Shown here in pieces: positions 1,500-46,762 of a stretch of DNA of 64,000 nt (position 1 is its first letter; every line of letters begins with the position of its first letter). This stretch comes from a virus: IMG/VR virus record IMGVR_UViG_3300022890_000019, positions 1 through 64,000 of that record, one strand, 5' to 3'. Both the position numbers and the translations under genes were made by a program. Under the pieces are notes generated by a model. The model was not told where the DNA came from. It did not search any database and was given only the letters and a program-made list of their open reading frames with translations.

Positions 1500-1501
1500 T
1501 T

Positions 1502-1998: not shown

Positions 1999-2000
1999 CC

Positions 2001-3080: not shown

Positions 3081-3096
3081 CTAACAAATTAAACAG

Positions 3097-24550: not shown

Positions 24551-27500
24551 CTAATAATCTGATTCTTTAACATCTCTGATTCCTAAACTAGGGAATGGGT
24601 CACTAATAGATCCTATAGCTGTTCTGTATTTTAGAATGTCTTTTACCTTCTTAGGACCAAAAGTAGCATCAACAATATCTAGTAAAATAGAAGTTACAGG
24701 GAAAGGATTTAAGAACCAGTCATAAGAAATCATCATCATATTAAGATCTTTGTACATCCAGTTTAACTTGATAAGCTTTTTGTCATTATCTTTTCCTACC
24801 ACAGCTCCACTAAGAGCAATTAAGAGAGAAAATACAGCAGTCTTAATAACAGTACGTGCTAAATTAAGTCTTCTCATAGGAGTCTGATTTTTCCACCAGG
24901 AGTCTAAGCCTTCATTCCTCATATTGGCTATTCCCTGTACAGCACCTACGAAGCTCTGCCATGCACCTTCTATCTCTATCCAATCTCTCTGAGTAACCCA
25001 CTCACCATTTTCTAACTGTATTGCTTTAAAGCCTGCTCCAAAAGAAGTTTTTCTTGGAGATGCAAAAAGACCTGCATTCCATATTTTATCTGCTGAGAAT
25101 ACTCTAAACTGAGAAGCAGCAGCACCTAGATAGTCATTACCTAATAACCACTTAGCAGTATTGTCCATACTACCTATAATAAATTTATCTCCATACCATT
25201 TTAATTGTTCTGAAGCTAGGGTATGATCATGTCCTCGATCTACTTTGGTAGCATCTTCTTCCATAAGACCCTGATCCTTTAACCTATTTTTAAGACCGTT
25301 TGGACCTTCTACTAGTACCTCTTGCTCTTTAGTCTGGGTACCATCTTCATTATAATATCTTTCGTCTTTTTTGATATCATACTGTATGTCTCCTTTTTCA
25401 TTAAGAGAATAAGCATCCCAACTACCCTCATGAATCATCCATCCTGCCATACCTACTAATCTAGCTTCTGCATCAGAAGCCCAGTTAGTGATATGAGCCC
25501 ACTGATCATTAAGAATATTCCCTTTGTTAGCTACATTAAGCCATGGACTATCTATAAGGTCTCTTTCTGTACGATTTACTAACTGGAACATAGCACCGAG
25601 TCTTCTAGCTTTTTTGAAGTTAGTAGCTACTTCATATCTTGCTTTATTAACATCTCCTGTAGTAGGCAGATAGATTTTTTGTGATTCATCTAATCCTATA
25701 TTTGCAATAGAGGCAGCTAAAGCATTTATCTGTTCACTCATTTCATTCCATATACCTGACTTAGCACCTATAGTCCACTTGTATCCTAGAGAGATCATAC
25801 TGAATGCACTAAGAGTAGCTCTAGCAAATGTTTTAACATCTACTGTTACCCCACCGGGAAGAGTGATCTTAACAGAAGTATCTTCATTCTTTTTCATAGC
25901 TAACCTATTGCTAAACATTTCAGCAAATCTTCTGTTGTTTACCATGAAGTCTTTAGAGTTCTTAGTAGATTCAAAGTATCCATAGACAGCATCTACATCA
26001 TTAAAAGCAGGCATATATCTATTTTCATATTCTTCTGTGCGGATCCCTTCCAATGTGTAATAGTTAATTATCTTCTCTAGGTTCGTACTTGCTAGCATAT
26101 TTTTAGATAAGTCTGCTACCGTTAAGCCATTCTTAGTATATAATAGTCCTGCTTGTTCATAAAGCTTATCCTTACTATTCATCTGTGAAGCAAAAACATT
26201 ACTGATAGTATTCATACCGCTAGTGAAAGCCATACGACTTTTATCATTTAAGTTGTCATCGATAAACTCATCATAGTTAACAAACCTTTGACCCATCCTA
26301 TCCCAGGCAGCTTTGAAGTTCCCTGATAACAATGTTTCATTTAGTCCTTTAGAGATAATAACCATAGTTCCCTTTTCTACAGATTCATCAAACTCTTTAG
26401 CAACCTCTGCCTTACTGATCTTTGAATTACCGAAAACATCTTTACCTTTTATATCACTTGTTCTACTATGATACCAGTTATCGATAGTCCTCTGACGGAA
26501 TGTCTTCCATACTACCTCCATCAGTGCTTTGTCATCTTCATTATGCTTAGGATTATTAAAGTCTAATATAGGAAGCATTATAGGTACAGTCTCCCCTTTC
26601 TTATAGGTTTTAAGACCTACCTTCTGGTCTTTCTCAAGGGTAAGGGTAGTGTGCTTAAATAAATGCTTATAATAAACACTACCTTCATCTTTAATTAGTG
26701 TTTCAGCAGCTACCTGTGGATGTAAAGCAATATAATTTTTGGCTACTTTCTGTGCTTTATCATATATCTGATTATGTATCTTCATGTAACGATCTACGAC
26801 TATAGAATTAACAAGTCTACCTTTAGATACTAGCATCTGTAAAAGATCATCTCTTACATTGTGGATAGGTACAAGATTCTTTTCGAACTTATTCATATCC
26901 TTGATAGAGTTTTTAAAGAAAACAGCTCCATAGCTTTCAAGTTCTAAGATACTCATAGAGACAAGAAGATCTTCATGATCTTTTTCTTTTTTATCTCTAT
27001 TCCTGCCCCGTAAATCTTTCTGCAGTGCTCTTAATGCTTTTACCTGATCATGAACAGTAGTATTCCTATCCATAAATAGCGTTGAGAGGCTTTCTGCTCT
27101 ATTGACATATCCATATCCATACTTGCGATATCCTTCATCATCCATAACTTTCTTTAGATACATCTGGAACCTTCTTACGAAAGACTGTTCGTATTTTGTA
27201 CTATCAGAGATTTTCTTGTCTGTGAATATATCTTTAACATCATCATTAACTAGGTTATTTAACCATTCATCTTGCTGAGACAGTACATTCATATTGCTAA
27301 ACATATCCTGGATGTCTAACATCATATAAGACTTAACATTGCTAGGTTGTATTTCTAGCACTCCCATGCCTCTGAACTTAACCTTACCACCACTAGCCTT
27401 CATCATGTTCATTATAGACATAGAGAGGATAGCTCTTCTGATATCGTATGCTGAGTTACTCCAAGTACCACCAGCTTCTATAAACTTATTATCTGTCATC

Positions 27501-30500
27501 ATAGTACCTAACAGTCTATTCCTATTTGCCGGTGCAAAAGGAACTTTGTCTTGTAAGGAGAAGGTAGTAACATCAAGGATAGAGAGATCTACAGTACCAT
27601 CGTCTTCGATACCGTGAATGGTAATCAGTGGATCAAAGCCTTCAAAGGCGCTATTGTATAATGCCCTGACAGCCTTAATATCGCTGTTTTTAAGGTCACT
27701 ATACTTCATTACAGTTTCAATCTTATCACCCAGGCCAAGATAGAAAGCCATATCTGTTACAGCTTTCTCGCTATATACATTACCAAAGGCCTTTTTAGCT
27801 GCATCATAGATAGTTTCCTTCTGGTCTATCACTAGGTTAATAAAGTTCTGTACATTGTTCTTATAGGATACCTCGAAAGAGTTAATATGAGGAACAATAT
27901 CTTTTTCTATAGCAGCCTCTAGCTGTTCATCAGTCATCGTATTAGGATAGGCAAAAGTCTTATCTAAGCTATGGAAGACATAGTTACCTGCATCATCGGT
28001 ATAGCTCTTCATCTTATGAAGTGTCGTTCTTACAAATTCTTCTGTGTTAAGCTCACCCATAGTATGTCCATACTCTGAATAAGGATTCACTATAGCTGCA
28101 AAGTCCTTAGTGGTATTTACTCCTTCTTGTAGGTAGAACTTATTACCTTCTTCTAGGGACCTGTAAGCGTCATCTAGCTGCCATATGTCATAGTTTACTG
28201 GATCAGTACCGTACGTTTGCCTACCAGTCTCGAGGAGGAAGTCTGAGACCTTACCTTCAGTGAATATCTTATCTAGCTTCTTCCTAAAAGGAAAGAATAG
28301 ATCATGAAGTGAATTGTTAACAAGTGTGTTGATAGAGGTTGCTATATTCAGTAAAGCATCTAAAGAGGTATTATCAGTAAAAAAGTCTCTGATACTCTCT
28401 TTAAGCATCACCTTCATAGCTGTATTCCTGTTGATTATCTGTGAAAGGATGGCCAGTACCTCATGAGTTACATCACCATCGGTAGTAGGTCTATTGTGTT
28501 CTTTAAGCTTTCTTACTACATGGTCACGGATAGGTTCTATCAGCTTATCTCCATTGTTAGCAGAGTCTATGATAGTGTTCTTAATAGTATTCCAGGTAGC
28601 AGGATCATTCATTATCATTATCCCATTCCTGAAATGCTGAAACTCATGGACAGGCATAGTAAAAGAGAACTTCTCTACATTCATATGTATACCATCACCG
28701 TCAAACATTCCAGAGGCTCCTTTTAAAGACTCAGTAGTACCTTCTGTAATAGGTACTCCTGTTACTTTTTCCTTTAAAGCATCCATCCACCGTTGTGCTG
28801 CCTTAGTTGACAGTCTACCTAGACTATGCTTTTTAAAGTCTATCATAGTATAGCGAGTCATAGACCCTTCTTTGCCTACATACTTGCTTAAAGCACTCAT
28901 AGACTTGTTGACAAACTTCTGTGCTTCTTCGGATCCTTCTATCTCTCTTACTAGTTCACCTTCTACAGTAGCTATAAACTCACTGTCTCCTTTCTTAATT
29001 TTATACTGTGCTTTTTGATTCTTCTCTTCCTGCTGTTTAGCTATCTTAATCTGATAGTTTTCCTTAGCTTGCTCGATCTGTTCTTCTGAGAGATCAGCTT
29101 TCACCCAAACAACGTTCGTTGGCTGTATTCTGAGGGCTCTGATCAACGTTCCCTCCTCAGTGGTATATAACCCTTCCAGACGGTCTACGTTCATATTAGC
29201 GTAGCTGTGTCCTCTGACATATGATAATGGTACCTGCTGGTTGTCTAATAGAAGATCTAGCTTCTCAGGACTCATCTTTACTATCTCCATAGTAGAAGTC
29301 ATATCCTTGACAGTATCAAAGCCACCTCTCTCACCGATTAGATATTCATAGTCGTACTTCTCAAAAGCATTACCGAAGAGATCCTGATCATTTTTTATCC
29401 TGGCAGTGAAGTTAGCAGTAAACCTCTTAAAGTCTTTACGCTTCATAATAGTCTCAGGGAAGATACCTAGGTCTCTAGCCTTACGGGTGAGGAAACTGCT
29501 CATACCCTCTTTATGCTGTACCCACTTGGTAAACCTCTCTACAAGGTCGGTAAGCCTATTCATATTCTTAGGCATCCACTCCATCTCTGCCTTAGTCATC
29601 TCAAGACTCATAGCTAAGCCATCTTCACCATAGTAGTGTTCTGTACCCATGATTTCATTGATACTTCCTTTACGGTAGTTAAAGCCTGTATTGATAAGCT
29701 GGTTGACCCTGTATAGCTCTTTTAGGTATTTAGGTAACCTGTCGAATTCTATAGCTAGATCTGATAGCTGCTGCTCGCTGAGGTTAAAGGCATCTGCTAG
29801 CCTGATATATTCTTTCCCCTCTTGTCCTTGCAGAACAAGGTTAGCGATAAACTTATTATTCTTGATAGCATCATGAAACTCATTGGTATAGTCTATCCCT
29901 ATAGCCTGTATAGCTCTGGAAGCATCACCGAAGTTCATAGTAGACATACTCCTGATAAGGTCATGAAACTGTGGGAACTGCCTTACAAAGAGTGTCCTTC
30001 CTTCTACATTATCTAGTGCTACCGTCTCGTAGTTAGACTCAGGAGAAAAATAGTTACCATCAATATCCTGAAGAGGTACTGCGATGTTAAACTTCCTTCC
30101 AGTAAATGATCTCTTAAAAAACTTATCCAGGAACAACTGCTGCATACCAGACTTAAAAGTATAAAACTGCTTTGCATAGTTAAAGACATTGTTAAGTTGT
30201 CCTTTCAAATAGTTAGGAGCAAAATAATCCCAGATCACTTTGTTGTCTTCCAGGAAAGTCTTAGAAGCCACCTCTCTCTGGTTGTTGATCTCATTATAAT
30301 AATCTTTAAAGTGTGTGCGTCTTACAAATTCAGAGATGTTAATAGCCTTGGCTATTTCTAGCTCATAGTCCAATAATTTCTCTGCTTCATTGTTAGCTTC
30401 ATCAAATTGTGAAGATATAAGCCTGGAATATTTATTATCCAGTTTCTTAAAGTTCTCTATATGACTCTCTGCATTCCACTCAGCACCTTGCATAAACTCC

Positions 30501-33500
30501 TCGTAAGTCATCCCTAGATACTTAGAAAGCTCGTTCTCTGCCTTATAGAGGTCAAAGTCCATTACTGGTACTCCATTGCGTAAAGCTACAAAGCGAGTCA
30601 TCCTACGTAAAGCTTCTGCTGTGAAGACGTATTTTTTAAGCTCTGTAAGGACCTGATAGTTTTCTCTTCTCTCCTGCTCACTCTTTATAGCACGTATGTC
30701 TCTGGACAGCTCTTCTATAAGATTCATGTCCGGTGGAGTGTTCTCATCTACCTTTTCAGCTTCAGTAAGTTTTGTCTCTAAAGCTTCTCTCTTAGAAAGT
30801 AAAGATTTGTTGCTGTCAGTATTTTTACTTCTCTCGTTAAGGACCATCTCTTCAGCTACCAGTTCATATACCTGTTCTGCCTCAAAAACTTCTAAGCTGT
30901 TCTGGAAACTTCTTTGTGTATAGATCTTCTCTACTACAGGATGTTCGAAGAATGTAGCTATCTCCTGGTTGCTCTTACCGTCAGCAGTCATTACAGCTAC
31001 CACGGGAACAGCTTCAGCAGTGATACCTAGCCTACCTAATACAAGCTCTTTGGCATTATCTAAGGCTACCTGCATCCAATTACCTAAATTGATAAATGGA
31101 GATGTGCTCCACTGCTCTTCGTCAAACAGTGAGAGGTTTCTTAACCCCGGAGCATTATTTCTGATAAAGGTCTTTCCTAGCTGTGCCAGGTAAGAGACTC
31201 CTGAGAGAGACATGGCCAAGATACCTATAGCCTTGTTACCTTCACTAGCAGTTTGACTACTATCAAGGTAAGAGGCAAAATCATTATCTCTTCCATACTT
31301 TCTTTTCTTTTTATCTACAAGTTCCTTTAAGCCTTTTACATCTGACTTAATAAATATCTTACTAGCATTAGCAGGGTCCTGGTATACATTGTCTATCTCA
31401 TCAAGGATAGCGTTACGAGCACCACCCTCTCCTTCGATAGCTAACTTACCATCAGCAAACTCTCTCATATATACCGTTAACTGGTCAATATCCTGGTCAG
31501 CATTGTTACGGATGTTCATCTCTACAGGAACATAAGCTGTGTTACCATTGTCATTGATAAAAGCTGTGATCTCTAATATAGAAGCACTGCCTAACCTATC
31601 TGCAGGTACACGACCTGAATATACTTTTAGAGACTCTTTGAAGTTTCTAAAGTAAGACAGTGGATCTTCTGGACTGTTTCTAAATATAGGAGAACTCTCT
31701 TTGTTGATAACAGAGCCACCTTCAGCTAAAGTCTGTAAGAAGTCTATAAACTCATCATCGTTTAGGTTACGTACATTCCAGGATAACACTTCTCCATTAG
31801 CTTCTGCTTCTATAGTAAAGACATCGTTAAGAGTTTCATCATTCTTTATACCAAACTCTCTCATGTAAGGATAAGGCATTACCGTCTGTCCTCTCTGAAT
31901 ACCTTCATTGCCAGCAGTCATATCTTTTAAGTCTGCAGGAGTATATCCGAGATCTATAAGGTCTTCTACTGACTCTATAGTGCTATTGGTAAACCGTTCT
32001 ATCTCTTGTAGAGTATAAGGAATCCCATTCTCATAATAAAGCTGATAACCATAGGAAGAAGACTGGTTTACACGTAAGCCTTTAAAAGAGGTACGTATAG
32101 CATTGTCGTTTACAAAACTCCTATAAGCCTGTTTTAACTTCTGTGCTACTTCAGGAGAATGTATAATGCCAGGGTTGTTGATAACATTGTTGATAAGGTC
32201 AGTGTATCCTGTGATAAGACCCATCTGACGTATAGCCTGTAAGCCTCTCTCTCTGAGGAAAGAAACAAACTTCTCTATATCCTGTTCGTTAAAGGCTGCT
32301 TCTGGTTTGTTAGCCTCTATACCCATCAAAGTATTTATCCTAGCCTTACTCATAGTATAAAGCTCTTCTTGTAATATCCTTATCCTCTTACCTCTGTTTA
32401 GGTTACTAGCACCTATGCCCATATAGGATAGATTCTGTGAAGGAGGAGCCTGTCTTTGTACCTTGTTAGTCTCTTGGTATGGATTTAACACTATACGCAG
32501 AGAAGAGTTGTCAAAATCTCTTGCTATGAGATCTTTCTCTTCAGAAGAGTAAGGATCATACATGTTCACATAGTTGACAGTCTGCTTCTCTATAGTCTCA
32601 TCAGCAAATCCTCTTGGAGTACGAGCCTTTATCTCTTCAGAGAAGTTACTCTCTTCTACGATCCAGTCTCTTAGGTTCCTAAATGCTTTCTGTGCATCCC
32701 TGCTACCAGCATGACCTGTAGCTTCATAAAGTTCTTTGAATTTAGCATAGAGGTCTATATCATAGTTCTCAAAGTCTTTTCTCATAACCTTTGTGACATG
32801 ATCTAATAGATCTTTTTGCATCTGACGTACAGGAAGTGTCTGTTCGTAGGTCTGAGAGCTGAAAAAATTCATAGACTCTTTTTCCTGGTACTGATCACCA
32901 TACTGAAAATCCATACGATTATCCAGAGTCTTGACTCTTGTCTTGTCAATAGGACCATACTGATAATCTATACCACTTTTCTCCATAAAAGATTCCCAGA
33001 GCATAAACCCATTCACACCACCGTCATCATTTTCTATCCATTCACCGGTCGTTGCATCTTCTTTGTACATGGTACTAACCATTATCTCCTTACCCATAGC
33101 AGGGAGACCATATTTAGTATTTACTACAAGCTTACTACCACCAGTTGCTTTAGATCCTGATCTCTTAACCTTATCAGCAGCATCTTTATGGTTCTGTACA
33201 TTACCAAAGGCAAACTCTCCTACCGCATTGTTAACGATATGGTATGCATAGAAGTGAGCTTTGTAGACAGGATTCCATATTATATTCTCTGTAGTAGTTG
33301 TGACTGTGATAGGAGTCTCGGAAACACCATAGCGATTTGCTGAAATAGACATCTCTTCCATGTGCTCTTCCATCTTCTCTGTATAGAAGTAACCCATCTT
33401 ACCTTCTATAAGGGTTTTTACGTCGTTTTGTTGACGATATCCTATTTGTGATAGCTTACCTGCATATTCCCTATATAGTGGAAAGAACAGCTTATCTCTT

Positions 33501-36500
33501 TCAGTCTTGTTTAGTAAGGCAAACCTTTCTCCATTGTTAGAGAACTTCTGATAGTTGTCATGGTTATAGATAGCTTCATATCCAGGTACCTTAAACAGTA
33601 TAGAATTACCGAGTGTAACAGTATTACCATCTAAGAAGTAATCTTTGTTCTTACGTAGTCCAGAACGCATTAGGTCTATAGCCTGCTCATCGGTGAGAGT
33701 CTTAGAGAAAGATTCTAGGCTTTTAGGATTAAAGTTCTTTAAGTCTTTAACAGACCATAGCTCTCTAGGAAATACTTTGGTAAGGTTGTTAGCAGGTATC
33801 TCTCTGGCAAATTTACCCTGGGACATCTGCATCTCTCTGTTAGCTCTCTCAAATTCTATAGCGATACCATGGCTTATCATCTTCTCATCTACATTAGCTG
33901 AGGTGATATTACCATTAGAGTCTCTATCTATGTTTATCAGTCTTCTTCCCTTTCCAAAGGAGAAGTCAGTATTAGTAATATATGTTAGCTCTTTATCAGC
34001 TATATTAGTCATAGTAAGAAAGATATCCTGAAGCTTATCAGTAGACTTACGTATACCTTCTATGAAATTAGCAAGGTTTATAGTAGCTAGATCTTTAGAA
34101 CCAGGCTTTACAATACCTCTATTACCTACACGCAGTCCATTACCTATAGTGAGGCTTCGTATACGGATACCTTTAGGATCAGCTATCCAGTTAGTCCATT
34201 TGCCTTTAGTATTCTTCCAGATAGAGTTATCTAGTATTTCTTTAGGCATATTATTGATCTTATCAGTAAGCCACGCAGAACCATCCCCGAACATATCAAA
34301 GACCCAGGACTTCATCTTAAATCCCCAGGCTTTAGTACCATCAGGTCTATTGGAGAAGAGATCGGAGTCTATACCCTTATTATATACTTCCAGTGCTGCT
34401 ATCACACCAAAGGCATTATAATAGTCTACAGGCTTATAAATCTTAACATCACTCTTAATAGTCTCTACGTTGTTACCTGCAAAGACTTTCTCAAAACCAT
34501 CTATAGTGCTATCGGTGATGTTCATCTTCTTACGAAAGGAACTCATCTCTTGGTTGAAAGGTACAGATAGTTCTTTTATCTGCTTAGCTTCTTGCTTTTT
34601 TGCTTCCTCTTCATTAATAGCTTTATTGTCTAGCTTACGCAATATACCCTTGTTGATAGTCTCTATCTTGTCGAGCATGGTAAGGTTAGAAGACGCAGAC
34701 CAGAACATATTCATAAAGGTCTCTGCCAGGAAGGTATTAGTGTTCTCTAAGTTATACTCAGGAGTACGTTTGTTCAGCTCTACCCTAGCACCTTCATGGT
34801 GCATGTTGTTATACATATTGTAGATAGTCTGGTCAGTGACGTTCTTGAGTCCTATAAAGTTCTTGATGTATGTGAGTATCTTATCTCTACTGTCGTTGTC
34901 ATGGAAAGCCTCAGTGAAAGAGATCTTACCGTCAGTATAAGAGATGACTTTTATCTTCTGCTTGTTCTTTACATAGGAGATACCACTAGAAGTAACTTCA
35001 AACTCTGCATTCTTACCACTGCCTAGTCTATCTTTTACATGCTCTCTGAAGCTCCGGGTGTCTTTGTCATATAGTGTCTGAGAGATGCCATCGATAATCT
35101 CTTTCTTCTTGTTATCAAAAGTATTCTCAAAGGAGTTAACAATATTATATACCGTCTCGTCTCCTGACTTCTTAGACTCTATAAAAGAAGACTTAGGCCT
35201 CATAAAAGAAATATTATAGGATATCAGTGAGTTGATAAAGTCTGAGAGGTCACTCTGGATATCTAGCTTTAGCTGAGACACATTGCTTCTACCGTCACTC
35301 TTGATAAGCTCATCGATACTATTTATCCTATTGCTTAATGAAGGTTTACCTGTGAAAGCTTCAAAGAACCTATGATAGAAACTAAGGATGTTACTACCCT
35401 TATAGGTGTCAAGTCCTGCCTCAGTAGCTAAGTTATAGAGTTCCTGAGTAAAGGCCTCTACTGGATTCAGTGAAGGATCTTTTAGTAGCCTGTTAGCTAC
35501 ACGCATCCCTGCATCTTTCAGAGACTTCTCAAGGTCCTTACTGTTCACAAAGGCATATGCATCTTTAGTATCCCACTCGTTGCGTACCAATCTCCCATTG
35601 CTAGAATAATAGTACTGATGAAACCTAGTAGCATTTATCTGCATCTTCATAAAGTCACTCTTAGTCTGGTCAGGATTTGCATCATCCCCGGCTCTGTTAT
35701 ACTGAGTAGACTGCTTATTCCATTTGTAGAAGCGACCTGTCTCTGGGTTATACCCTGGCATAAGCCTTACTATAAAAGAAGTGAATATTTCTTGGTTAGC
35801 TAACCTAAGCCACCCTAGATTTCTTCTCTCTACTATAGAGAGTTTCTTTGCATCGTCATCAGTGATCTGGCTGTAAGGGATACCTACAGAGGTAAGCTCA
35901 TCAGCAAACTCATTACCATACTCTTCATACTCTTTCTGTACATCTTTGATAGCTTCTGTCATAGGTACTACCTTGTCAACAGATAAATCAGAAGAGAAGA
36001 AAGTATATTGTATTACTGCATCAGCTACAGCATTGAGATACTTGTTAATGTCATTACCAAATACCTTATATTGATTATTGAAGATCTCTATATAGTCAGT
36101 GTTAGGAGTATCATCTTTAGCGAATCCATCTTCTGCCTTATGGTTAAAGTTATCAGCCTGGTATTCGTCAAGCTCACTCTCTCCTTCCATTCTTACAATG
36201 TCTCTACCACCATCATGTACTGGTTGTACATTTCTATAGTAACCGTGATCCATCTTATAAAATAGCTCATCGAGAGTATTTACCCTCTTAGTATATCCAT
36301 TAAAGAGCTTGTTTACAAAGTCTACAAATCTACTCCATAGTCCTTGCTTAGGCTTTACAGAGTCTAAGTTTAGTCCTGAATAGCCATAGTCTCTTGCCAT
36401 CCACTCTGTAAGATAGTCTTCAGTAGCATTAGGAAGGCCTAACAGTTCCTTTGTGGCATTATAGAGCCTCTGACGAGAGTTCTCATCAATTAGGTAGTCG

Positions 36501-39500
36501 AATACCAGATGAAAGAATTCGTGCTTAGGAGTAGTGTATTTAATACCTTTTTTATACAAGGCTAGTTTTATCCTACCATTATACATTAACCCGTGGATGT
36601 CCATACCGTCAAACTGAAGGTTAGGAGTAATATCATTCTTTACCTGTTCCCAAATAGAAGGGTGAGCTATCTTTTCGAATAGTTCTCTTACCGCAGCTAC
36701 AGTTACAGTACGTGGCTCTATGTTATCAGTCTTTATTTCAAACCTAGGTCTCTTAGCACCTTTCTTACTTGCAGGTCCATCTGAACTTTTAGGAGTCTTA
36801 TTAGTAATTTCTTCGTTAACGTCAACAAGTCCATCAGTAGATATATTTACATATGGAAAGTGTATAGCCTCTGCACTGGTAACGATATTCTCCATCTCAC
36901 TAGGTGATAACTCTCTGGTACTTGTGCTTAGGTCTATAGTATACGGCTGGTATAGTTTGTCTATCTGTAGTCTTAGGTTCGCTGCCTCACCGGTAACGTC
37001 ATCTTTATATAGCTCTGTCACCTGGTCCAGGAATGCATCTAGTACGTCAAGCTTTATCTGTGCATCGGTACGTACATTGTCTGAATCTAAAAGGAAGATA
37101 TCTCTGTTTACCCTTACATTGACTCTACCACCTACCTTTTCAAAGTAGGTACCAAAGAAGTCGTTAAGAGCTTTGTTATTAGTAATGATGCTTAGGTTTT
37201 GTGCGAAGACATTCTTCCAGAACATCCTGTTAAGTTCACTACCAAAGAAGCTATCCTGTTCAGAGGCACGGATATCTTTTAGGCTCTGCTTGTCCTCTTT
37301 GATCTTCTCATGCATCCTCTTAGAATTCATCTTCCCAAGGTTGTTAGTCTTAAAGATCACATAGGCCTCGTTAGCAGTACTGTTTACATCACCTTCAGAG
37401 AACTTATACTTTAAGAGTAGTCCTACCCTACCACTACCATAGAATGTCTGTACTATCTTATCAGAGAAAGTAACCATTTGTCCGGAAAGTGTATTCTCTA
37501 TATGAGCCATAAACTCAGCAAAAGTTCTAAGAGGACCTTTGTTATAGATTACATTACCCTCGTTGATATCATTTTCTAGTATGATCTCTCCAAAGCTGTA
37601 CTCATCGGTATTAGAGTCATATCCTTTCTTTCTCAGAGAAGCCTTATAGTAGTTAACCTCTTTGTTAGCTGTATGGTGTTCTGGGCTTAGCTCCATGCCT
37701 GTATAGCTACTGTCAAAGCCTTCAGATATCTGTCGCTTTATATTCTCTAAGGGCTGTGAGTAATCTCTTATCTGCTGCTTAGCGTATCCTGCATCAGTCT
37801 CCCCCAGAGAAGCTATATATTGATTTCTTTGTAAGATCTCTCTTTCATTACTTGTAAGAGACTCTTCGTTGATAGCACTAACCTTAATAGCTAGCACGTT
37901 GTCAAAGTTCTTCCAGGTACCAGTATTTCTATCTTCCATCAATGCTGACTTTAGATATACTAGCTCAGAAGTTACCTTTCTCTTATAGACCATGTTTAAG
38001 ATAGACACTCTATCCTTACGTAGCTGATCCATATTTACATCAGCTGACGAAGTGTTAAAGACACTATAGATAGTACCCCAAAGCTTGTTACCGTTAAGCC
38101 ACGCCTTAGCTTGTCCTGTGAAGAACGTCTTACCACTCTCTATGTCATCAAGGTCAGTAGTCTCTTTAGGGCCACTGCGAAGGGTATACTCTTTCTCAAA
38201 AGTGTTAAGATCTATCTGCTTGCCACCGAGGTATATTTCATACTCTACCACACCATCAGTAGTTTTCTCTATAATAGAATCTATGATATAGAAGTTTCCT
38301 GTAGAGACTTCATCAGCTACAGCACCTTTAACGATGCTTGGCTTTCCTGGGTACTCAGTAAGATACTTGTTAGTAGTATATCCGGGAGTAGGTGCAGGAG
38401 TCTTGACTATAGGATCCAATATTCCTAGAGCTACCTGTGACTCTTTACCAAAAGGTTCTGCTAAAGTCTTGGTAAGCTCATTATAAGCTTTATATTTCTG
38501 TCCTGTAGCAAAAGAGTCTGCTGTCAGGTCTTTCTGGTTCGTTACACTCTGGGTAATCTTAAAGAAGGCACCAGAATCATCTCCTTTGTTGATAGTATAG
38601 ATACCGTTCTTACGGAACTTGTGAAGGATAGGAGTAGCTATCTTAGTCTTTACCTCTTTAGGTTTCTCCTGTGGCTTGATAGCTGACTCTATACCTATGT
38701 TCTTTAGATACTCATTCATATCATTATAGATATCAGAAGTATCAAGTACCTCTTGCTGACCATCTATCCACCATGAAGGCCTCTGTGTAAGATTTAACCC
38801 TTCTGAGCCTACCAGACCCATAAAGCGAGAAGCTCTCCCTACAGCTGTATAAGCACTGTTAGAAGCTACAAATTCTTTTAACTCTTTACCATTGTATTTA
38901 TATCCCCAGCTATTGAGGTTTACTGCCATGTATACTTCATCTTTACGAAGACCTTGGATGCTTGGAATCTTCCTAGGCATCACATTGGTTGCAGGATCAG
39001 ACATCAACACATATACCTGTCCCTGGAATTCTGTCTTTAGGTTACCATGCTTGTCAAAGAGCTTTTCAACTATCTTCCTAGTTTCCTCTTTGGTGTTAGG
39101 ATCTTTTAGGAGTGCATCTATCTGTTCTGAGTTTAAGAAGACAAGAGCACTGCTTACACTCTCTGGCCTGGACAGTGCATCACTGATAACACTATCTACA
39201 GTATTATAATATTTTCCTCCCTCTCTTCTAGTTATCCCTACTGCTTCATATTCGTTGACATACACTTCAGGATAACCCATAGAGTTATTGTCTAGTCTGT
39301 TCCTAAACGCTTCTGCTAGTCTTTCGATAACAGGATTGCGAGTGGTGAACTTAAACATCACCGGGAACGTACGAGCACCCGTCTTCTGTGCATAGGAGAT
39401 ATTGTTCTTAGCATCAGGAGGCATCATCTGTGAAGCATCACCGAGCCATATGATCTGAAAGCTAGGATCGGTAGTATCTTCATTATAGTTCTTATTGATA

Positions 39501-42500
39501 ACTTGTAGGTTGTCTTTACTAAGCAGAGAAGCCTCATCGACTATCATACCTTCATACTGATTAGGGTTTTGTACCTTACCACCTATGAAGTCTGCCATAG
39601 AGATATTATCAAATACCTGATCAATACCTTCTAAAGAACTGCTTAGCGTATTTAGTACCTCCTGGGTATGGTGTACCAATAAATATTTTCTTTTAGGATC
39701 TTTTTTAAGCTGGTCTCTGATAGCTATAGCTTCAGGAATCATATGCTGACTCTTACCACCTCCAAAGTCTCCTCTCATAAAGATAGAGTTAGCCATAAAG
39801 ATATCTTCTTTCTCTGACACCTTCTTTATATGTTCACTGTTGTTAAATTCTACCTCCCTGACGATCTTGAGCACATCAGCATTATGTCCTAGCAGTTGGT
39901 TTACCACCATATTCACACCCATCATCTGTTCGAAGGTAGAGATATTCTGAGCCGTTACATTGACTTTAGACCTTGCACCCTGAAGAGTATTGATGCTCTC
40001 TCCATTAAGAGCCATGAGGAAGTTTACCAGGTAGGTATATCCTTCATGAGTCTTATATACATCATTGACACTATTTACCTTTAACAGATTATAGTAATAG
40101 TTAAGAGTCTCTCCTACCTTAGTATAGTCAGGAGCATTGAAGTAAGCTGAGTTGTATCTGAACTTCTTAGCAGCAAGTAGCCTGTTTATAAAGTCATAGT
40201 TCACTAGCTGGTCACTGGCACCCTGCATCTTTACAAAAATGTCATGTAGCACCTTCTCACTGTTTAACAAGTCTGCCATCTCCTCTACACCCGGAGGAGT
40301 GTTTTTATCCTTTTGTTCCTGGGTAAGGTCTTTAACATCTTCTAACAGTTTCTTAATATCAGGAACGAGCTCTTCCATCATGGTAGGATCCATCTCATAG
40401 AAGAGAGTCACTACCTGCTTCTGAGCATTGATATGTCCTTGACGTAGCTTGATCTGGAAAAACTTACTAGCTTCTTTAGCTAGCTGTACACTGTTACCCA
40501 TAGTATCGAGATCTATCAACATCTCACTTACTTGCTCTCTGCTATTCCTTAGCTCTGACTCACTGACATAATATTTATATGCAGGTAGCTCTTTATTCTT
40601 TGAAGGTTCTAGCTTAGGATGATCTGATCCTTTAGAGAAGAAGAACATTCCTTTATCAGCAGTCTTCAGAGCATCTCTAACAGCATTGATAGACTTAATC
40701 AAAGAGGCTGCAGTAGACGGGTTAAGGTCAGTACTTGTCTGCTCCCTGAAGTTATCCACCCTAGCCCTCATCTCTTCGAGAAACATCATAGGTACATTGT
40801 CATCATTGCTTAGCTGTCTTATCTTCTCTGTATTCTCATCTACAAAAGCATTCTCTGATAGCTGTGTAATAGCATCTATAGTTTCCCTGGTAGTATTAAG
40901 CTGATCTTTTACATCTTCATTGGTAGGATCAGTAGCATATTCATCGTTAAGTTCTTTCTCAAGTTGTTCTAGCTGCTTCTGATATTTAGCACTTTCTCTT
41001 ATTGCCTGGATCTGCTCTTCATTACCCTGTGCAGGGATACCAAAAGTAATTTCTTTAGAGAGAGCTATTATTGCCTTGCAGACACCCTCAAACCCCTTCA
41101 TAAGGTCTTTCTTTGACTTTAGCTTAGAAGCTTCACCTACGGTAGTAAATAGGTCTTTGTGGGTAACTACAGTCTCATTGTTACTCTTTACAATCTTCTC
41201 TTGCTTTTCTATTTCCTGAGTCTGGTATTCTGTGAGCTTCTGTGAGAACTCTGTAGCTTTCTCATAGGTATCTAAATGATCCAGGATATTCCTTTTGTAT
41301 TTAGTCTGGTACTTCTCTGACTTCCGAAACTTATCGGTAAGCTCTGTACCTTCATTCTTAAAATGTTCATCAGAGACATTCTTAGCATAGAGTAAAGCAC
41401 TATACTTCTCTCTGATAGCTTCATTATATTTCTTACTGTATTTTGTGTCTGCACCTTCAGGAACAGTATACTCTTGTATAGCTTGAGAGACAACACCTAG
41501 CTGCTCATCGATCTTAGCTATCTGTGCAGCATCTTCCTCGGTAGCCTCTTCCTTATTCTCTAATGCTAGCTTCTGCTCAGCAAGACCTTTATAGGATACG
41601 ATAAGATCAGTAAGTTCTTTCTGCATGAGCTTACTCCTACCTATAGCCTCAAGTACTATTGGGTTGTCAATACCAAAATCTTTAACGATACCTTCAAACA
41701 TATCCATAGACTGCATCATACCCTGATATGCAACATCATTCATAGAACCATCAACACTCTCAGGATTTTTTATTTCTCCTTCAGTAGAGATGTAATTTGG
41801 ACCTAAAGACTCTTTGTTATATAGATCTTGAGTAGCCTTTCTTAGCTTATCCATCTCACCAGTTACACCATAATAACCCATAGTATAATCTGCCATAGGA
41901 TTCTTGCCGGCACCCATAGTGAGTCCCATTGTAATACCACCCATAAATCCTGCTACAGTAGACTCTAGTACATTATCTCCTATCCTATTAGATAAGTTCT
42001 CTAAGTAACTCTTATTAGCATCTACAGGACCAAATAATCCTTTTCCTGGTAATAATCCATTCTCTCCATCATATCTTATCTGATCATGGAATGTCTGCAT
42101 AGAGTTCTCTATCATCTGCTGAAAGAATTCTTCTGTTCCTTCTTCACCACCTGCTAAGATAGTTCTAGCAAATATAGTTTTCCCCTCAGAAATAGCTTTG
42201 ATAAAGCCGTGCAACCATAATCTTTTTTGTGTCTTTGTACCTTCTTTAAGATTCTTTATACCAAATTTTTTCATTACCTTTTTAGCTGCAGTTAACCTTG
42301 CTGCCTTATCTACAAAATAACCTGATCCTCTAGCAATAACATTTCTGCCTATAAATCCTTCTGTAAATGTCTCAGAAGCTACCTGTATAGGATACATCCA
42401 AGCGATATCAGCTTCCTCTATCCCCATATCTCTAGCAGTCTGTACAAAGTGATGGCCACTCATTAATCCAAAGACTCCAAAAGATGTCCAGGTAGAAGCA

Positions 42501-43696
42501 AAAGATTTAAACCCATTAAAATTTCTTAATCCCTGTGCTAGTCCTTTTTGTATTACTAATTGGGCAATTACACTACCCATTACTGAAGAGAATCCTTCCC
42601 AACTATTAAACATTCCCTGATTAGCACGTAGAGATTTTCCAAACAGTGCTTTATTCTGAATAGTAGTTTCTCTTTTAGATCTATCAGCCCATTTATTTAA
42701 TCCATAATAATCACCACCAAAAAATAGTTCATTTAGATAATTACTACCCATTTCATCAGCAGTCTCAAAAGTAGCAGCACCACTAGAAAACATATTATAT
42801 GCTTGAAATATTCCATCTTTTATAGCATTCCTTTGAAAAGGAGCAGGCCCCATAGCACTAACAATAGAACTTCGAGTGACTCTAGGATCTTCTACTGGTA
42901 CTTCTAACATAGTAGGTGTACCATCTGGGCCCGGAGCATATATTTTAATAAAATCATTCTTATCTGTAAGAAATAGAGGAATAGTTTTATCAGAATCATC
43001 AGGATCTTCTACATTAACATCTATATCACCATATGTACCTTTCTCTTGAAGAGCATTCATATATGCTACATAACCATCCTTTTGTTCCTGGGTCCTCATC
43101 TTAGGATCATAAACAACATCATCTTTAGTTCCAACAAAGAAATTATCAAGAGCAGCTAACCCTCTTAATACAGTATGTACTCTATCAGATACGGTAGGTT
43201 TCTTTTTTATTATCTTTTTGCCAAATCTGTCAATATAATATCCTTTAGCAAATACTTCTTCTTGAGGACTAAGTAGATTCTGTCCAAACTGATTAACACC
43301 TATAGTTGGAGAGATATAAGTTTGCTCTAAAGAATTTCTATCAATAGACTTAATTCCCATCTCTTGTTTTAAGAAGGTATCATTACCATAAGCAATCCAT
43401 GGAGTAACAAAGTGATCAATCCCATCTTGATGATCTAAATAACCCGTAGAAGCCATATCGTAGATCTTATCAAAGTTCTTTGGATCTATCATAGGAGTAT
43501 CTACAGTATACTTTTCTCTTGCCTTTTCTCTATCCCAGAGAGTCACTACTGCATCATTCTCCTTTAGTGATTGTCTTATTTGATCTGCTGACCATTGAAA
43601 GGCATACATTGGGAAATAATCAAGTGTTGCTTTTGGTGTTGCTTCTTCTTCTCCACCATCACCTATACTATTAACATTTTCAGTATCGTTATTCAT
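24551..43696 (-). CDS. Giant virion polyprotein: SF1 helicase, two zincins and RNA polymerase core
   Basis: The single 6381-residue reading frame fills 30% of the window. Hydrophobic stretches lie near 360-420 and 585-600. An SF1 (RecD-like) helicase spans about 1300-1640: GGGKS with Lys1315, Walker B IVDEAS, motif III GDASQ, motif V IQGLRKDEV and motif VI YTAVGRASR. A first zincin has HEFFH at 2392-2396 with Glu2431 as possible third ligand. A two-barrel RNA polymerase core lies at about 3480-4170, with KVKRSGSK near 3510, SGRVPADRLGS near 4040, the metal motif ADQDIDQLTVY (Asp4067, 4069, 4071) and NKAIGILAM near 4155. A second zincin has HEFQH at 5017-5021 with Glu5079. A membrane-type helix lies near 6275-6290. 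In crAss-like phages such polymerases are carried in the virion and injected to transcribe early genes; here all parts are fused. Confidence 0.8.
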   Translation of the reverse strand: MNNDTENVNSIGDGGEEEATPKATLDYFPMYAFQWSADQIRQSLKENDAVVTLWDREKAREKYTVDTPMIDPKNFDKIYDMASTGYLDHQDGIDHFVTPWIAYGNDTFLKQEMGIKSIDRNSLEQTYISPTIGVNQFGQNLLSPQEEVFAKGYYIDRFGKKIIKKKPTVSDRVHTVLRGLAALDNFFVGTKDDVVYDPKMRTQEQKDGYVAYMNALQEKGTYGDIDVNVEDPDDSDKTIPLFLTDKNDFIKIYAPGPDGTPTMLEVPVEDPRVTRSSIVSAMGPAPFQRNAIKDGIFQAYNMFSSGAATFETADEMGSNYLNELFFGGDYYGLNKWADRSKRETTIQNKALFGKSLRANQGMFNSWEGFSSVMGSVIAQLVIQKGLAQGLRNFNGFKSFASTWTSFGVFGLMSGHHFVQTARDMGIEEADIAWMYPIQVASETFTEGFIGRNVIARGSGYFVDKAARLTAAKKVMKKFGIKNLKEGTKTQKRLWLHGFIKAISEGKTIFARTILAGGEEGTEEFFQQMIENSMQTFHDQIRYDGENGLLPGKGLFGPVDANKSYLENLSNRIGDNVLESTVAGFMGGITMGLTMGAGKNPMADYTMGYYGVTGEMDKLRKATQDLYNKESLGPNYISTEGEIKNPESVDGSMNDVAYQGMMQSMDMFEGIVKDFGIDNPIVLEAIGRSKLMQKELTDLIVSYKGLAEQKLALENKEEATEEDAAQIAKIDEQLGVVSQAIQEYTVPEGADTKYSKKYNEAIREKYSALLYAKNVSDEHFKNEGTELTDKFRKSEKYQTKYKRNILDHLDTYEKATEFSQKLTEYQTQEIEKQEKIVKSNNETVVTHKDLFTTVGEASKLKSKKDLMKGFEGVCKAIIALSKEITFGIPAQGNEEQIQAIRESAKYQKQLEQLEKELNDEYATDPTNEDVKDQLNTTRETIDAITQLSENAFVDENTEKIRQLSNDDNVPMMFLEEMRARVDNFREQTSTDLNPSTAASLIKSINAVRDALKTADKGMFFFSKGSDHPKLEPSKNKELPAYKYYVSESELRNSREQVSEMLIDLDTMGNSVQLAKEASKFFQIKLRQGHINAQKQVVTLFYEMDPTMMEELVPDIKKLLEDVKDLTQEQKDKNTPPGVEEMADLLNSEKVLHDIFVKMQGASDQLVNYDFINRLLAAKKFRYNSAYFNAPDYTKVGETLNYYYNLLKVNSVNDVYKTHEGYTYLVNFLMALNGESINTLQGARSKVNVTAQNISTFEQMMGVNMVVNQLLGHNADVLKIVREVEFNNSEHIKKVSEKEDIFMANSIFMRGDFGGGKSQHMIPEAIAIRDQLKKDPKRKYLLVHHTQEVLNTLSSSLEGIDQVFDNISMADFIGGKVQNPNQYEGMIVDEASLLSKDNLQVINKNYNEDTTDPSFQIIWLGDASQMMPPDAKNNISYAQKTGARTFPVMFKFTTRNPVIERLAEAFRNRLDNNSMGYPEVYVNEYEAVGITRREGGKYYNTVDSVISDALSRPESVSSALVFLNSEQIDALLKDPNTKEETRKIVEKLFDKHGNLKTEFQGQVYVLMSDPATNVMPRKIPSIQGLRKDEVYMAVNLNSWGYKYNGKELKEFVASNSAYTAVGRASRFMGLVGSEGLNLTQRPSWWIDGQQEVLDTSDIYNDMNEYLKNIGIESAIKPQEKPKEVKTKIATPILHKFRKNGIYTINKGDDSGAFFKITQSVTNQKDLTADSFATGQKYKAYNELTKTLAEPFGKESQVALGILDPIVKTPAPTPGYTTNKYLTEYPGKPSIVKGAVADEVSTGNFYIIDSIIEKTTDGVVEYEIYLGGKQIDLNTFEKEYTLRSGPKETTDLDDIESGKTFFTGQAKAWLNGNKLWGTIYSVFNTSSADVNMDQLRKDRVSILNMVYKRKVTSELVYLKSALMEDRNTGTWKNFDNVLAIKVSAINEESLTSNEREILQRNQYIASLGETDAGYAKQQIRDYSQPLENIKRQISEGFDSSYTGMELSPEHHTANKEVNYYKASLRKKGYDSNTDEYSFGEIILENDINEGNVIYNKGPLRTFAEFMAHIENTLSGQMVTFSDKIVQTFYGSGRVGLLLKYKFSEGDVNSTANEAYVIFKTNNLGKMNSKRMHEKIKEDKQSLKDIRASEQDSFFGSELNRMFWKNVFAQNLSIITNNKALNDFFGTYFEKVGGRVNVRVNRDIFLLDSDNVRTDAQIKLDVLDAFLDQVTELYKDDVTGEAANLRLQIDKLYQPYTIDLSTSTRELSPSEMENIVTSAEAIHFPYVNISTDGLVDVNEEITNKTPKSSDGPASKKGAKRPRFEIKTDNIEPRTVTVAAVRELFEKIAHPSIWEQVKNDITPNLQFDGMDIHGLMYNGRIKLALYKKGIKYTTPKHEFFHLVFDYLIDENSRQRLYNATKELLGLPNATEDYLTEWMARDYGYSGLNLDSVKPKQGLWSRFVDFVNKLFNGYTKRVNTLDELFYKMDHGYYRNVQPVHDGGRDIVRMEGESELDEYQADNFNHKAEDGFAKDDTPNTDYIEIFNNQYKVFGNDINKYLNAVADAVIQYTFFSSDLSVDKVVPMTEAIKDVQKEYEEYGNEFADELTSVGIPYSQITDDDAKKLSIVERRNLGWLRLANQEIFTSFIVRLMPGYNPETGRFYKWNKQSTQYNRAGDDANPDQTKSDFMKMQINATRFHQYYYSSNGRLVRNEWDTKDAYAFVNSKDLEKSLKDAGMRVANRLLKDPSLNPVEAFTQELYNLATEAGLDTYKGSNILSFYHRFFEAFTGKPSLSNRINSIDELIKSDGRSNVSQLKLDIQSDLSDFINSLISYNISFMRPKSSFIESKKSGDETVYNIVNSFENTFDNKKKEIIDGISQTLYDKDTRSFREHVKDRLGSGKNAEFEVTSSGISYVKNKQKIKVISYTDGKISFTEAFHDNDSRDKILTYIKNFIGLKNVTDQTIYNMYNNMHHEGARVELNKRTPEYNLENTNTFLAETFMNMFWSASSNLTMLDKIETINKGILRKLDNKAINEEEAKKQEAKQIKELSVPFNQEMSSFRKKMNITDSTIDGFEKVFAGNNVETIKSDVKIYKPVDYYNAFGVIAALEVYNKGIDSDLFSNRPDGTKAWGFKMKSWVFDMFGDGSAWLTDKINNMPKEILDNSIWKNTKGKWTNWIADPKGIRIRSLTIGNGLRVGNRGIVKPGSKDLATINLANFIEGIRKSTDKLQDIFLTMTNIADKELTYITNTDFSFGKGRRLINIDRDSNGNITSANVDEKMISHGIAIEFERANREMQMSQGKFAREIPANNLTKVFPRELWSVKDLKNFNPKSLESFSKTLTDEQAIDLMRSGLRKNKDYFLDGNTVTLGNSILFKVPGYEAIYNHDNYQKFSNNGERFALLNKTERDKLFFPLYREYAGKLSQIGYRQQNDVKTLIEGKMGYFYTEKMEEHMEEMSISANRYGVSETPITVTTTTENIIWNPVYKAHFYAYHIVNNAVGEFAFGNVQNHKDAADKVKRSGSKATGGSKLVVNTKYGLPAMGKEIMVSTMYKEDATTGEWIENDDGGVNGFMLWESFMEKSGIDYQYGPIDKTRVKTLDNRMDFQYGDQYQEKESMNFFSSQTYEQTLPVRQMQKDLLDHVTKVMRKDFENYDIDLYAKFKELYEATGHAGSRDAQKAFRNLRDWIVEESNFSEEIKARTPRGFADETIEKQTVNYVNMYDPYSSEEKDLIARDFDNSSLRIVLNPYQETNKVQRQAPPSQNLSYMGIGASNLNRGKRIRILQEELYTMSKARINTLMGIEANKPEAAFNEQDIEKFVSFLRERGLQAIRQMGLITGYTDLINNVINNPGIIHSPEVAQKLKQAYRSFVNDNAIRTSFKGLRVNQSSSYGYQLYYENGIPYTLQEIERFTNSTIESVEDLIDLGYTPADLKDMTAGNEGIQRGQTVMPYPYMREFGIKNDETLNDVFTIEAEANGEVLSWNVRNLNDDEFIDFLQTLAEGGSVINKESSPIFRNSPEDPLSYFRNFKESLKVYSGRVPADRLGSASILEITAFINDNGNTAYVPVEMNIRNNADQDIDQLTVYMREFADGKLAIEGEGGARNAILDEIDNVYQDPANASKIFIKSDVKGLKELVDKKKRKYGRDNDFASYLDSSQTASEGNKAIGILAMSLSGVSYLAQLGKTFIRNNAPGLRNLSLFDEEQWSTSPFINLGNWMQVALDNAKELVLGRLGITAEAVPVVAVMTADGKSNQEIATFFEHPVVEKIYTQRSFQNSLEVFEAEQVYELVAEEMVLNERSKNTDSNKSLLSKREALETKLTEAEKVDENTPPDMNLIEELSRDIRAIKSEQERRENYQVLTELKKYVFTAEALRRMTRFVALRNGVPVMDFDLYKAENELSKYLGMTYEEFMQGAEWNAESHIENFKKLDNKYSRLISSQFDEANNEAEKLLDYELEIAKAINISEFVRRTHFKDYYNEINNQREVASKTFLEDNKVIWDYFAPNYLKGQLNNVFNYAKQFYTFKSGMQQLFLDKFFKRSFTGRKFNIAVPLQDIDGNYFSPESNYETVALDNVEGRTLFVRQFPQFHDLIRSMSTMNFGDASRAIQAIGIDYTNEFHDAIKNNKFIANLVLQGQEGKEYIRLADAFNLSEQQLSDLAIEFDRLPKYLKELYRVNQLINTGFNYRKGSINEIMGTEHYYGEDGLAMSLEMTKAEMEWMPKNMNRLTDLVERFTKWVQHKEGMSSFLTRKARDLGIFPETIMKRKDFKRFTANFTARIKNDQDLFGNAFEKYDYEYLIGERGGFDTVKDMTSTMEIVKMSPEKLDLLLDNQQVPLSYVRGHSYANMNVDRLEGLYTTEEGTLIRALRIQPTNVVWVKADLSEEQIEQAKENYQIKIAKQQEEKNQKAQYKIKKGDSEFIATVEGELVREIEGSEEAQKFVNKSMSALSKYVGKEGSMTRYTMIDFKKHSLGRLSTKAAQRWMDALKEKVTGVPITEGTTESLKGASGMFDGDGIHMNVEKFSFTMPVHEFQHFRNGIMIMNDPATWNTIKNTIIDSANNGDKLIEPIRDHVVRKLKEHNRPTTDGDVTHEVLAILSQIINRNTAMKVMLKESIRDFFTDNTSLDALLNIATSINTLVNNSLHDLFFPFRKKLDKIFTEGKVSDFLLETGRQTYGTDPVNYDIWQLDDAYRSLEEGNKFYLQEGVNTTKDFAAIVNPYSEYGHTMGELNTEEFVRTTLHKMKSYTDDAGNYVFHSLDKTFAYPNTMTDEQLEAAIEKDIVPHINSFEVSYKNNVQNFINLVIDQKETIYDAAKKAFGNVYSEKAVTDMAFYLGLGDKIETVMKYSDLKNSDIKAVRALYNSAFEGFDPLITIHGIEDDGTVDLSILDVTTFSLQDKVPFAPANRNRLLGTMMTDNKFIEAGGTWSNSAYDIRRAILSMSIMNMMKASGGKVKFRGMGVLEIQPSNVKSYMMLDIQDMFSNMNVLSQQDEWLNNLVNDDVKDIFTDKKISDSTKYEQSFVRRFQMYLKKVMDDEGYRKYGYGYVNRAESLSTLFMDRNTTVHDQVKALRALQKDLRGRNRDKKEKDHEDLLVSMSILELESYGAVFFKNSIKDMNKFEKNLVPIHNVRDDLLQMLVSKGRLVNSIVVDRYMKIHNQIYDKAQKVAKNYIALHPQVAAETLIKDEGSVYYKHLFKHTTLTLEKDQKVGLKTYKKGETVPIMLPILDFNNPKHNEDDKALMEVVWKTFRQRTIDNWYHSRTSDIKGKDVFGNSKISKAEVAKEFDESVEKGTMVIISKGLNETLLSGNFKAAWDRMGQRFVNYDEFIDDNLNDKSRMAFTSGMNTISNVFASQMNSKDKLYEQAGLLYTKNGLTVADLSKNMLASTNLEKIINYYTLEGIRTEEYENRYMPAFNDVDAVYGYFESTKNSKDFMVNNRRFAEMFSNRLAMKKNEDTSVKITLPGGVTVDVKTFARATLSAFSMISLGYKWTIGAKSGIWNEMSEQINALAASIANIGLDESQKIYLPTTGDVNKARYEVATNFKKARRLGAMFQLVNRTERDLIDSPWLNVANKGNILNDQWAHITNWASDAEARLVGMAGWMIHEGSWDAYSLNEKGDIQYDIKKDERYYNEDGTQTKEQEVLVEGPNGLKNRLKDQGLMEEDATKVDRGHDHTLASEQLKWYGDKFIIGSMDNTAKWLLGNDYLGAAASQFRVFSADKIWNAGLFASPRKTSFGAGFKAIQLENGEWVTQRDWIEIEGAWQSFVGAVQGIANMRNEGLDSWWKNQTPMRRLNLARTVIKTAVFSLLIALSGAVVGKDNDKKLIKLNWMYKDLNMMMISYDWFLNPFPVTSILLDIVDATFGPKKVKDILKYRTAIGSISDPFPSLGIRDVKESDY

Positions 43697-46576: not shown

Positions 46577-46762
46577 TTAAATTTCTTGCTTACCTTCTAC
46601 TGCTAGTAACTTGTGACCTTTGCCTTTACATTTAGGACACTTGCACTTACACATGGCACCATAAAAGTAATAAATATTTTTACAATGAGTACACTGTATG
46701 CTTTTACGATTACCTGCCCTGATCACTTTCTTTCCCTTTCTATCTGTCTTTAACCTTCTCAT
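46577..46762 (-). CDS. Small zinc-ribbon protein
   Basis: A 61-residue, very basic protein with CTHC near residue 24 and CKCKCPKC near 38-45, enough ligands for one or two zinc ions. Its start overlaps the stop of the 714-residue gene by one base. A nucleic-acid or late-transcription role would be typical, but no specific family is recognised. Confidence 0.6.
   Translation of the reverse strand: MRRLKTDRKGKKVIRAGNRKSIQCTHCKNIYYFYGAMCKCKCPKCKGKGHKLLAVEGKQEI

Follow-up and report, generated by a model that had tools for sequence, protein, structure and literature searches.

One 6381-residue chain of a deep-branching crAss-like phage looks like a virion transcription block joined in a single polypeptide

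The better-known crAss-like phages phi14:2 and crAss001 use separate genes for the virion RNA polymerase and its companions, in keeping with what an earlier reading of this DNA made from the letters alone (the sequence-only reading) said of such phages in general. In the window, by which we mean the whole analysed stretch of 64,000 bases out of a 74,217-base IMG/VR record, one giant open reading frame appears to hold all of these parts. What is this chain, which of its modules can be recognised, and how far does it depart from the arrangements found in relatives?

The single uninterrupted frame reported by the sequence-only reading, which gave no strand, was recovered in full as 6381 residues (an estimated ~720 kDa) on the minus strand, and the motifs lie where that reading had placed them: GDFGGGKS with K1315, GDASQ at 1419, YTAVGRASR, HEFFH at 2392, DQDID at 4067-4071 and HEFQH at 5017. 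At the given base composition, 6381 open codons would arise by chance with a probability of ~10^-212, and the codon-position composition is coding-like along the entire chain. The complete 6381-aa ORF is present in a second contig (IMGVR 3300022868_000021), and the polymerase region is 100% identical in a third (3300023435_000036).

A Crassvirales-type portal, major head protein and muzzle are all present in this phage. The portal matches PHROG 6547 at 6.3e-33 and, by tblastn, 119 phage records, every one at <60% identity; the head protein matches a crAss-like family at 5.2e-08. The muzzle matches 33 phage records (best 4e-23): those of the Fpv phages, of phi14:2 and of MT835470 and MT835492, a pair of fecal phages that lack annotation. 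Because identity in the listed tblastn matches is only ~20-26% (33/33 muzzle records, 60/119 portal records), we place the phage on a deep branch of the crAss-like phages; its host is likely to belong to the Bacteroidota. The portal alignment held no stretch conserved enough to scan with. Yutin 2021 give an IHF-like gene and genes 74/75 as a signature of the Crassvirales (PMC7886860). From the muzzle through the intervening genes to the giant ORF, the gene order matches phi14:2 g071 to g065 and Fpv1 gp30-gp34, and the polymerase ORF follows the muzzle and the cargo-position genes, as in the gp66 family. Two of the intervening genes (668 and 714 aa) lie in the position of cargo proteins by synteny only, and comparison of both with cargo proteins revealed no homology (for the 668-aa gene, no blastp hit and no hhalign match).

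Outside this block, we note a large terminase ORF of 1083 aa just past the window (L001:3385-6636, minus; record 64384-67635). It appears to contain an intein of ~397 aa (residues 474-870) that begins with CLLPGEK, ends with HN before C and has endonuclease-like PHROG matches; Delta crAss-like phages are reported to have an intein in the terminase as well (PMC10136315). A 542-aa ORF was rejected as the large terminase, which was found to be this other ORF. An ATP-dependent DNA ligase-like gene (18204-19253, plus strand; PHROG 114 at 2.4e-14) belongs to the block opposite the structural genes.

Table 1. Features of the giant ORF and its neighbours in the window; residue numbers are those of the giant chain.
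Feature	Residues	Window coordinates	Strand	Basis or remark
Giant ORF	1-6381	24551..43696	minus	ATG start, TAG stop, zero internal stops
N-terminal region without assigned domain	1-1290	39827..43696	minus	no library family
SF1 helicase-like module	1292-1640	38777..39823	minus	motifs, profile, hhalign
First zincin-like module	2350-2492	36221..36649	minus	profile, hhalign; HEFFH 2392, candidate third ligand E2431
Two-barrel RNA polymerase core	3497-4402	30491..33208	minus	fold match, blastp
R-x-P motif, upstream of the catalytic loop	R4029-V-P4031	31604..31612	minus	R and P in 74/74 relatives
Catalytic DxDxD	D4067-Q-D4069-I-D4071	31484..31498	minus	in register in 74/74 relatives
Putative second zincin	5000-5085	28442..28699	minus	motif and position only: HEFQH 5017, E5079
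C-terminal g065/gp49-like module	6055-6338	24683..25534	minus	pairwise matches
Hydrophobic segment, then KDNDKK	6283-6301	24794..24850	minus	site as in gp49-like proteins
668-aa gene, position of cargo proteins		43723..45729	minus	synteny only
714-aa gene, position of cargo proteins		46762..48906	minus	synteny only
Muzzle (tail tip) protein homologue, 1323 aa		48911..52882	minus	PHROG 15100, 1.7e-18

The RNA polymerase core is identified with strong confidence. Residues 4021-4256 match a crAss-like ORF by blastp at 6e-9, the database searched being small (a few dozen proteins), and the polymerase profile scores 19.4 bits on the chain, against 3.0 for the best shuffle, with HMMER filters off. 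Overall similarity to relatives is low (13-18% in A2), and five positions, R4029, P4031, D4067, D4069 and D4071, are invariant in the alignment with 74 environmental polymerases. Three others depart from the family: N4065, Q4068 and Q4072 stand where relatives have Gly (74/74), Phe (74/74) and Lys (73/74). The catalytic loop, residues 4065-4072 (31481-31504), reads NADQDIDQ, and the crAss consensus is GxDFDIDK. The cellular beta' loop is NADFDGDQ, with a glutamine after the third aspartate, and the flanks NAD and DQ of the loop in the giant chain resemble it more than they do the crAss consensus.

An AlphaFold2 model of residues 3380-4480 reached a mean pLDDT of 66.9 and a pTM of 0.70. Foldseek matched this model to 6VR4, the phi14:2 virion polymerase, at 1.5e-11, the sole PDB match below 0.001; Foldseek's own superposition of the two is loose (TM 0.43, rmsd 12.6). 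With VIA-align, the same entry was aligned over 660 residues at Z 17.8 and rmsd 4.4, followed by QDE-1 (Z 10.6) and then by the large subunits of cellular polymerases (Rpb1/beta', Z ~9). The match to 6VR4 is not independent of family membership, because the alignment behind the model held 74 crAss-like relatives and 6VR4 may have been in the training set of AlphaFold2. Of the two double-psi barrels that the sequence-only reading had named as a check, the beta'-type one is predicted: the DxDxD region has pLDDT block means of 79-89 (model residues 641-700), the motif is in register in all 74 relatives, and 6VR4, QDE-1 and Rpb1/beta' are the structures matched. The beta-type barrel falls in a low-confidence stretch (block means of 45-74 at model residues 141-370) of the 6VR4 alignment, which spans model residues 118-1023; K3652 and K3690 align with columns that are always Lys, although the sequence alignment is doubtful there. 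A crAss-type polymerase in the stretch proposed by the sequence-only reading is supported, with 6VR4 as its best PDB match; the label "multisubunit-type" is better replaced by a single-chain two-barrel type of the phi14:2/QDE-1 kind.

The first zincin is identified equally strongly. With HMMER filters off, a 33-sequence profile built from crAss001 gp47 and 32 environmental loci scores 51.4 bits on residues 2350-2491, whereas none of 50 shuffles exceeds 7.0. The seeds had been picked by a HExFHxVF pattern, and a segment starting after the HExxH served as the control; hhalign gave 97.5% for the module and 84.7% for this segment. The module also matches the ORF of G003 by blastp at 3e-6 (G numbers are our labels for surveyed records, described below), and E2431, within an E-x-x-A pattern downstream of the HExxH, is a candidate ligand. 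Two zincins had been proposed. The family profile and hhalign bear out this first one, while the second does not extend beyond a motif match: HEFQH 5017 falls where relatives have a zincin, the profile at the site gives 3.2 bits, which is not above chance, and hhalign gives ~5%. Its E5079 lies in an E-x-x-A pattern found in 12/23 family members and 544/1252 background windows, and so does not discriminate. We call the second zincin putative, and its identification weak.

The helicase-like module is identified with moderate confidence. Motifs I (GDFGGGKS, K1315), II (VDEAS), III (GDASQ 1419), V (IQG) and VI (YTAVGRAS) follow one another in order. By themselves, the helicase residues of the giant chain score below the Pfam cut-offs, and related modules in G003, MT835470, MT835492, G001 and G031 pass them for AAA_30 and AAA_19, which are SF1 families. 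Aligned with these related modules, the chain has motifs I, II, III, V and VI at matching positions, and 14 residues of the SF1 motif set are invariant across 7 sequences. With HMMER filters off, the chain scores 17.6 bits with a nine-sequence profile, and the highest of 100 shuffles 5.4; a three-sequence profile gives 9.5 against 3.2; with a five-sequence profile, shuffles ranked above the full score of the giant chain, whose best domain scored 14.4. The hhalign probability is 88.8% over residues 1292-1431 (motifs I-III) and 0.5% for the motif V-VI stretch alone. The proposed SF1 helicase upstream of the polymerase holds at the level of motifs; the structure model, with a mean pLDDT of 37.1, is uninformative on the two RecA folds that had been expected.

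At the C-terminus, a gp49-like module is likewise identified with moderate confidence. Blastp matches this part to the C-terminal ORF of MT835470 (1e-4) and to an ORF of MT835492 (4e-3), both of which are themselves gp49-type profile hits, and single-sequence hhalign gives 48% and 58%, respectively. The gp49-type family profile itself returned no match on the giant chain at E<=1e-3 even with relaxed filters, and hhalign with it gave only 30%. Close to the C-terminus, 59/73 gp49/g065 family members have a hydrophobic 19-mer, which 6/73 have elsewhere in the ORF, and in the best-scoring members an acidic (Asp/Glu-rich) stretch follows the C-terminal one. The measure is crude, in that it also picks out a segment of this kind at 4218 of the giant chain, within the polymerase core. 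In gp49/g065-like proteins, the C-terminal hydrophobic segment may be a membrane-entering helix.

With default HMMER filters, the whole chain was missed by all four module profiles, and scores were obtained with the bias filter off; when the chain was cut into pieces, default filters gave a match with the first-zincin profile only. General libraries returned little: the N-terminal 3500 aa matched neither Pfam nor PHROGs at E<=0.1, and there was no usable match in a Pfam scan of both halves, and a sole weak PHROGs match in the C-terminal half (tail assembly chaperone, E 0.08), which is not usable. A PDB sequence search with the two halves gave best matches of only E 2.4 and 6.9, and tblastn with 2782 aa of the C-terminal half found none in the phage collection at E<=0.01. 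Single-protein scans of viral contigs with three window genes recovered identical copies only, and a scan of genome contigs found no relative.

Among the closest known arrangements is that of phi14:2, in which g066 (6VR4) is the best fold match and g067-g066-g065 present the module order of the giant chain, after the muzzle and with an aligned DxDxD. Unlike the single chain here, these are three genes of 1797, 2180 and 1421 aa, and g067 is without the Walker A or GDxxQ pattern of the giant chain; the entries for g065-g067 cite MS/MS. In crAss001, the first zincin matches gp47 (blastp 1e-3) and the DxDxD region gp50 (0.015), while gp47, gp49 and gp50 are three genes on two strands; all three were detected in virions by mass spectrometry (PMC10172136). 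The Flavobacterium phage Fpv1 shares the synteny and shows a partial fusion, with DxDxD and a downstream HExxH in one chain, gp33 (4401 aa). Its gp49-like C-terminus is a separate protein, gp34 (1596 aa), and gp33 is without Walker A or GDxxQ. A further one is the 5024-aa ORF of G003 (IMG/VR 3300017917_002948), which carries helicase, first zincin and polymerase in the order of the giant chain; unlike in the giant chain, an HExxH and the gp49-like module lie in the next gene (1499 aa).

Related designs are known outside the crAss-like phages. Thermus phage P23-45 gp96 likewise places a two-barrel virion polymerase inside a giant virion protein, but there the fusion partner is a tape measure protein of 5,002 aa, and the polymerase is described as differing in structure from gp66/QDE-1; that paper nowhere uses the word helicase (PMC10770324). 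The phage N4 virion polymerase and the "polyvalent proteins" offer an injected giant with polymerase and zincin (PMC5512222), as we propose here, with the difference that the N4 enzyme is T7-like and that of the giant chain two-barrel. Iyer 2017 describe polyvalent proteins by disparate enzymatic domains in one injected polypeptide; the giant chain has such domains and may be injected. Within the crAss-like phages, Yutin 2021 describe several large multidomain proteins in the block (PMC7886860), and the Epsilon (PMC11054128) and Zeta (PMC12386605) papers form part of the comparison literature. Among the literature matches listed, no title or abstract opening speaks of a helicase joined to the virion polymerase of a crAss-like phage.

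How common is fusion among relatives? Our survey comprises 82 records from two motif scans, of which 80 have a polymerase ORF (G022 and G032 have none in the stretch fetched). The zincin-pattern set consists of the 32 loci that tblastn indicated to be crAss-like among 83 with the first-zincin pattern, and the polymerase-pattern set of 50 picked from 110 polymerase-profile loci among at least 120 pattern loci, a choice that favours longer contigs. Ten of the 80 polymerase ORFs are cut by an end, and there are 5 near-duplicate pairs. Counts with the bias filter off (80 records, 65 with first zincin, 8 with helicase and 3 with gp49-like module) are close to those with default filters (77, 63, 8 and 3), and modules can escape the profiles, as does the gp49-like part of the giant chain itself.

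The first zincin lies within the polymerase ORF in 65/80 records, with 30/30 in the zincin-pattern set and 35/50 in the polymerase-pattern set; fusion is common, and the novelty suggested by the sequence-only reading was overstated. The helicase lies within the polymerase ORF in 8/80, a share that is too high for the family at large because the 50 include all four loci already seen with the Walker A and GDxxQ pair (L172, L260, L276 and L279). It is upstream of the polymerase in G003 only and downstream, in the same ORF, in G001, G031, G037, G073, G077, G081 and G082; it is also found in the transcription block of MT835470 and MT835492. The gp49-like module shares the polymerase ORF in 3/80 by profile, and helicase and gp49-like module occur together in 0/80; by the same profiles, the giant chain itself is positive for the helicase and negative for the gp49-like module. 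In 22 further loci, several from the same records, the polymerase ORF holds a gp49-like module in 0 and a helicase in 1 (default filters). Where genes are broken in relatives, the breaks fall mostly between such modules. We also observed that the polymerase ORFs of G060 and G069 (L221, L240) are long only if TGA is read as an amino acid, each block having a match to the helicase profile in a different ORF (bias filter off), and that the fused first-zincin region is without HExxH in 12/65 records (e.g., G036, G044, G045 and G049), in which peptidase activity may have been lost.

The novelty first ascribed to the fusion shrinks further, since zincin, polymerase and gp49-like module share one chain in G018 (4799 aa) and G054 (5329 aa), both without a helicase profile hit, and the helicase is already upstream in G003. 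Nor is the size of the chain new in kind: polymerase ORFs reach at least 5000 aa in 11/77 records (default-filter count; longest 6057 aa), and a 2023 Crassvirales review gives polymerase genes of up to ~6000 aa and treats giant RNA polymerases as a hallmark (PMC10136315). On these data, the 6381-aa chain appears to be the longest, and the only one with all modules. It looks like the crAss-like transcription block joined in one chain, an extreme version of a known theme.

In sum, we read the giant ORF, with a probability of about 0.8, as a single-polypeptide fusion of the late transcription-cargo block in a deep-branching crAss-like phage. The N-terminal region with the SF1 helicase-like module and first zincin would be the counterpart of g067/gp47, the single-chain two-barrel polymerase that of g066/gp50, and the putative second zincin together with the C-terminal module and its hydrophobic segment that of g065/gp49. 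The frame, the order of the modules, the homology of the first zincin and polymerase core, and the SF1 motifs come directly from the computation. For relatives, virion packaging and early-gene transcription are known (PMC10172136, PMC10136315), and from them we infer that the giant chain would be made late and packaged in the virion, then extruded through the tail with the DNA, refold and transcribe early genes. The helicase might help to open or move along the incoming DNA, which is a guess; the zincins might cleave the chain, either ahead of ejection or once it has been ejected, and the hydrophobic segment near the C-terminus might meet the membrane. We lean slightly towards ejection as one piece rather than after cutting.

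How such a block would work can be read in several ways. The chain could be a polyprotein that its own zincins cut into separate helicase, polymerase and gp49-like subunits like those of phi14:2, so that fusion would only secure co-packaging. We hold this possible, at less than even odds. In the proposal of Iyer et al. 2017, zincins drive the processing of multidomain proteins that are injected, and virion polymerases of the N4-like type are said to be invariably joined to domains of this sort; the same authors note, however, that the N4 virion RNA polymerase is packaged unprocessed (PMC5512222). The position of the first zincin between the helicase and polymerase modules, and the gene breaks of relatives between modules, would suit cutting; on the other side, the 12/65 fused first-zincin regions without HExxH indicate that a peptidase is not always needed.

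Alternatively, helicase and zincins could be conflict effectors directed against host DNA, defence or envelope, with the polymerase functionally uncoupled from them, as polyvalent proteins do join unrelated activities in one injected chain (PMC5512222). Depending on the phage, the helicase comes before or after the polymerase, which speaks against a single fixed mechanical role; its recurrence in the transcription block (8/80 in the selected sample, as well as MT835470 and MT835492) fits a transcription role equally, and we consider effectors an unlikely explanation. Less likely again is an uncut injected machine, in which the helicase would drive or open incoming DNA ahead of the tethered polymerase while the hydrophobic C-terminus anchors the chain at the inner membrane, with genome entry mechanically coupled to early transcription.

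We think it quite improbable that the polymerase module is degenerate and the chain mainly a structural or ejection protein. Q4068 and Q4072 do replace residues kept in 74/74 and 73/74 relatives, similarity is low, and the C-terminal segment is hydrophobic, but the three catalytic aspartates, R4029 and P4031 are all kept, and cellular beta' also has glutamine after the third aspartate. That an assembly artefact joined separate genes is scarcely credible, even with a gp49-like module absent by profile from the polymerase ORFs of 77/80 relatives, given the complete ORF in the second contig, the coding signature along the length and the other chains, G018 and G054, that combine zincin, polymerase and gp49-like module.

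Read as a fused transcription-cargo block, the giant chain presents the crAss-like virion transcription proteins as one modular unit in which gene breaks come and go. The same modules, occurring as one, two or three chains, constitute a natural experiment. An SF1 helicase tied to this block, upstream in the giant chain and G003 and downstream in seven records, offers a lead on the role of the polymerase's companions. If fusion is complete, helicase, polymerase and gp49-like module would be held in a 1:1:1 ratio, and whether they are ejected together becomes open to test.
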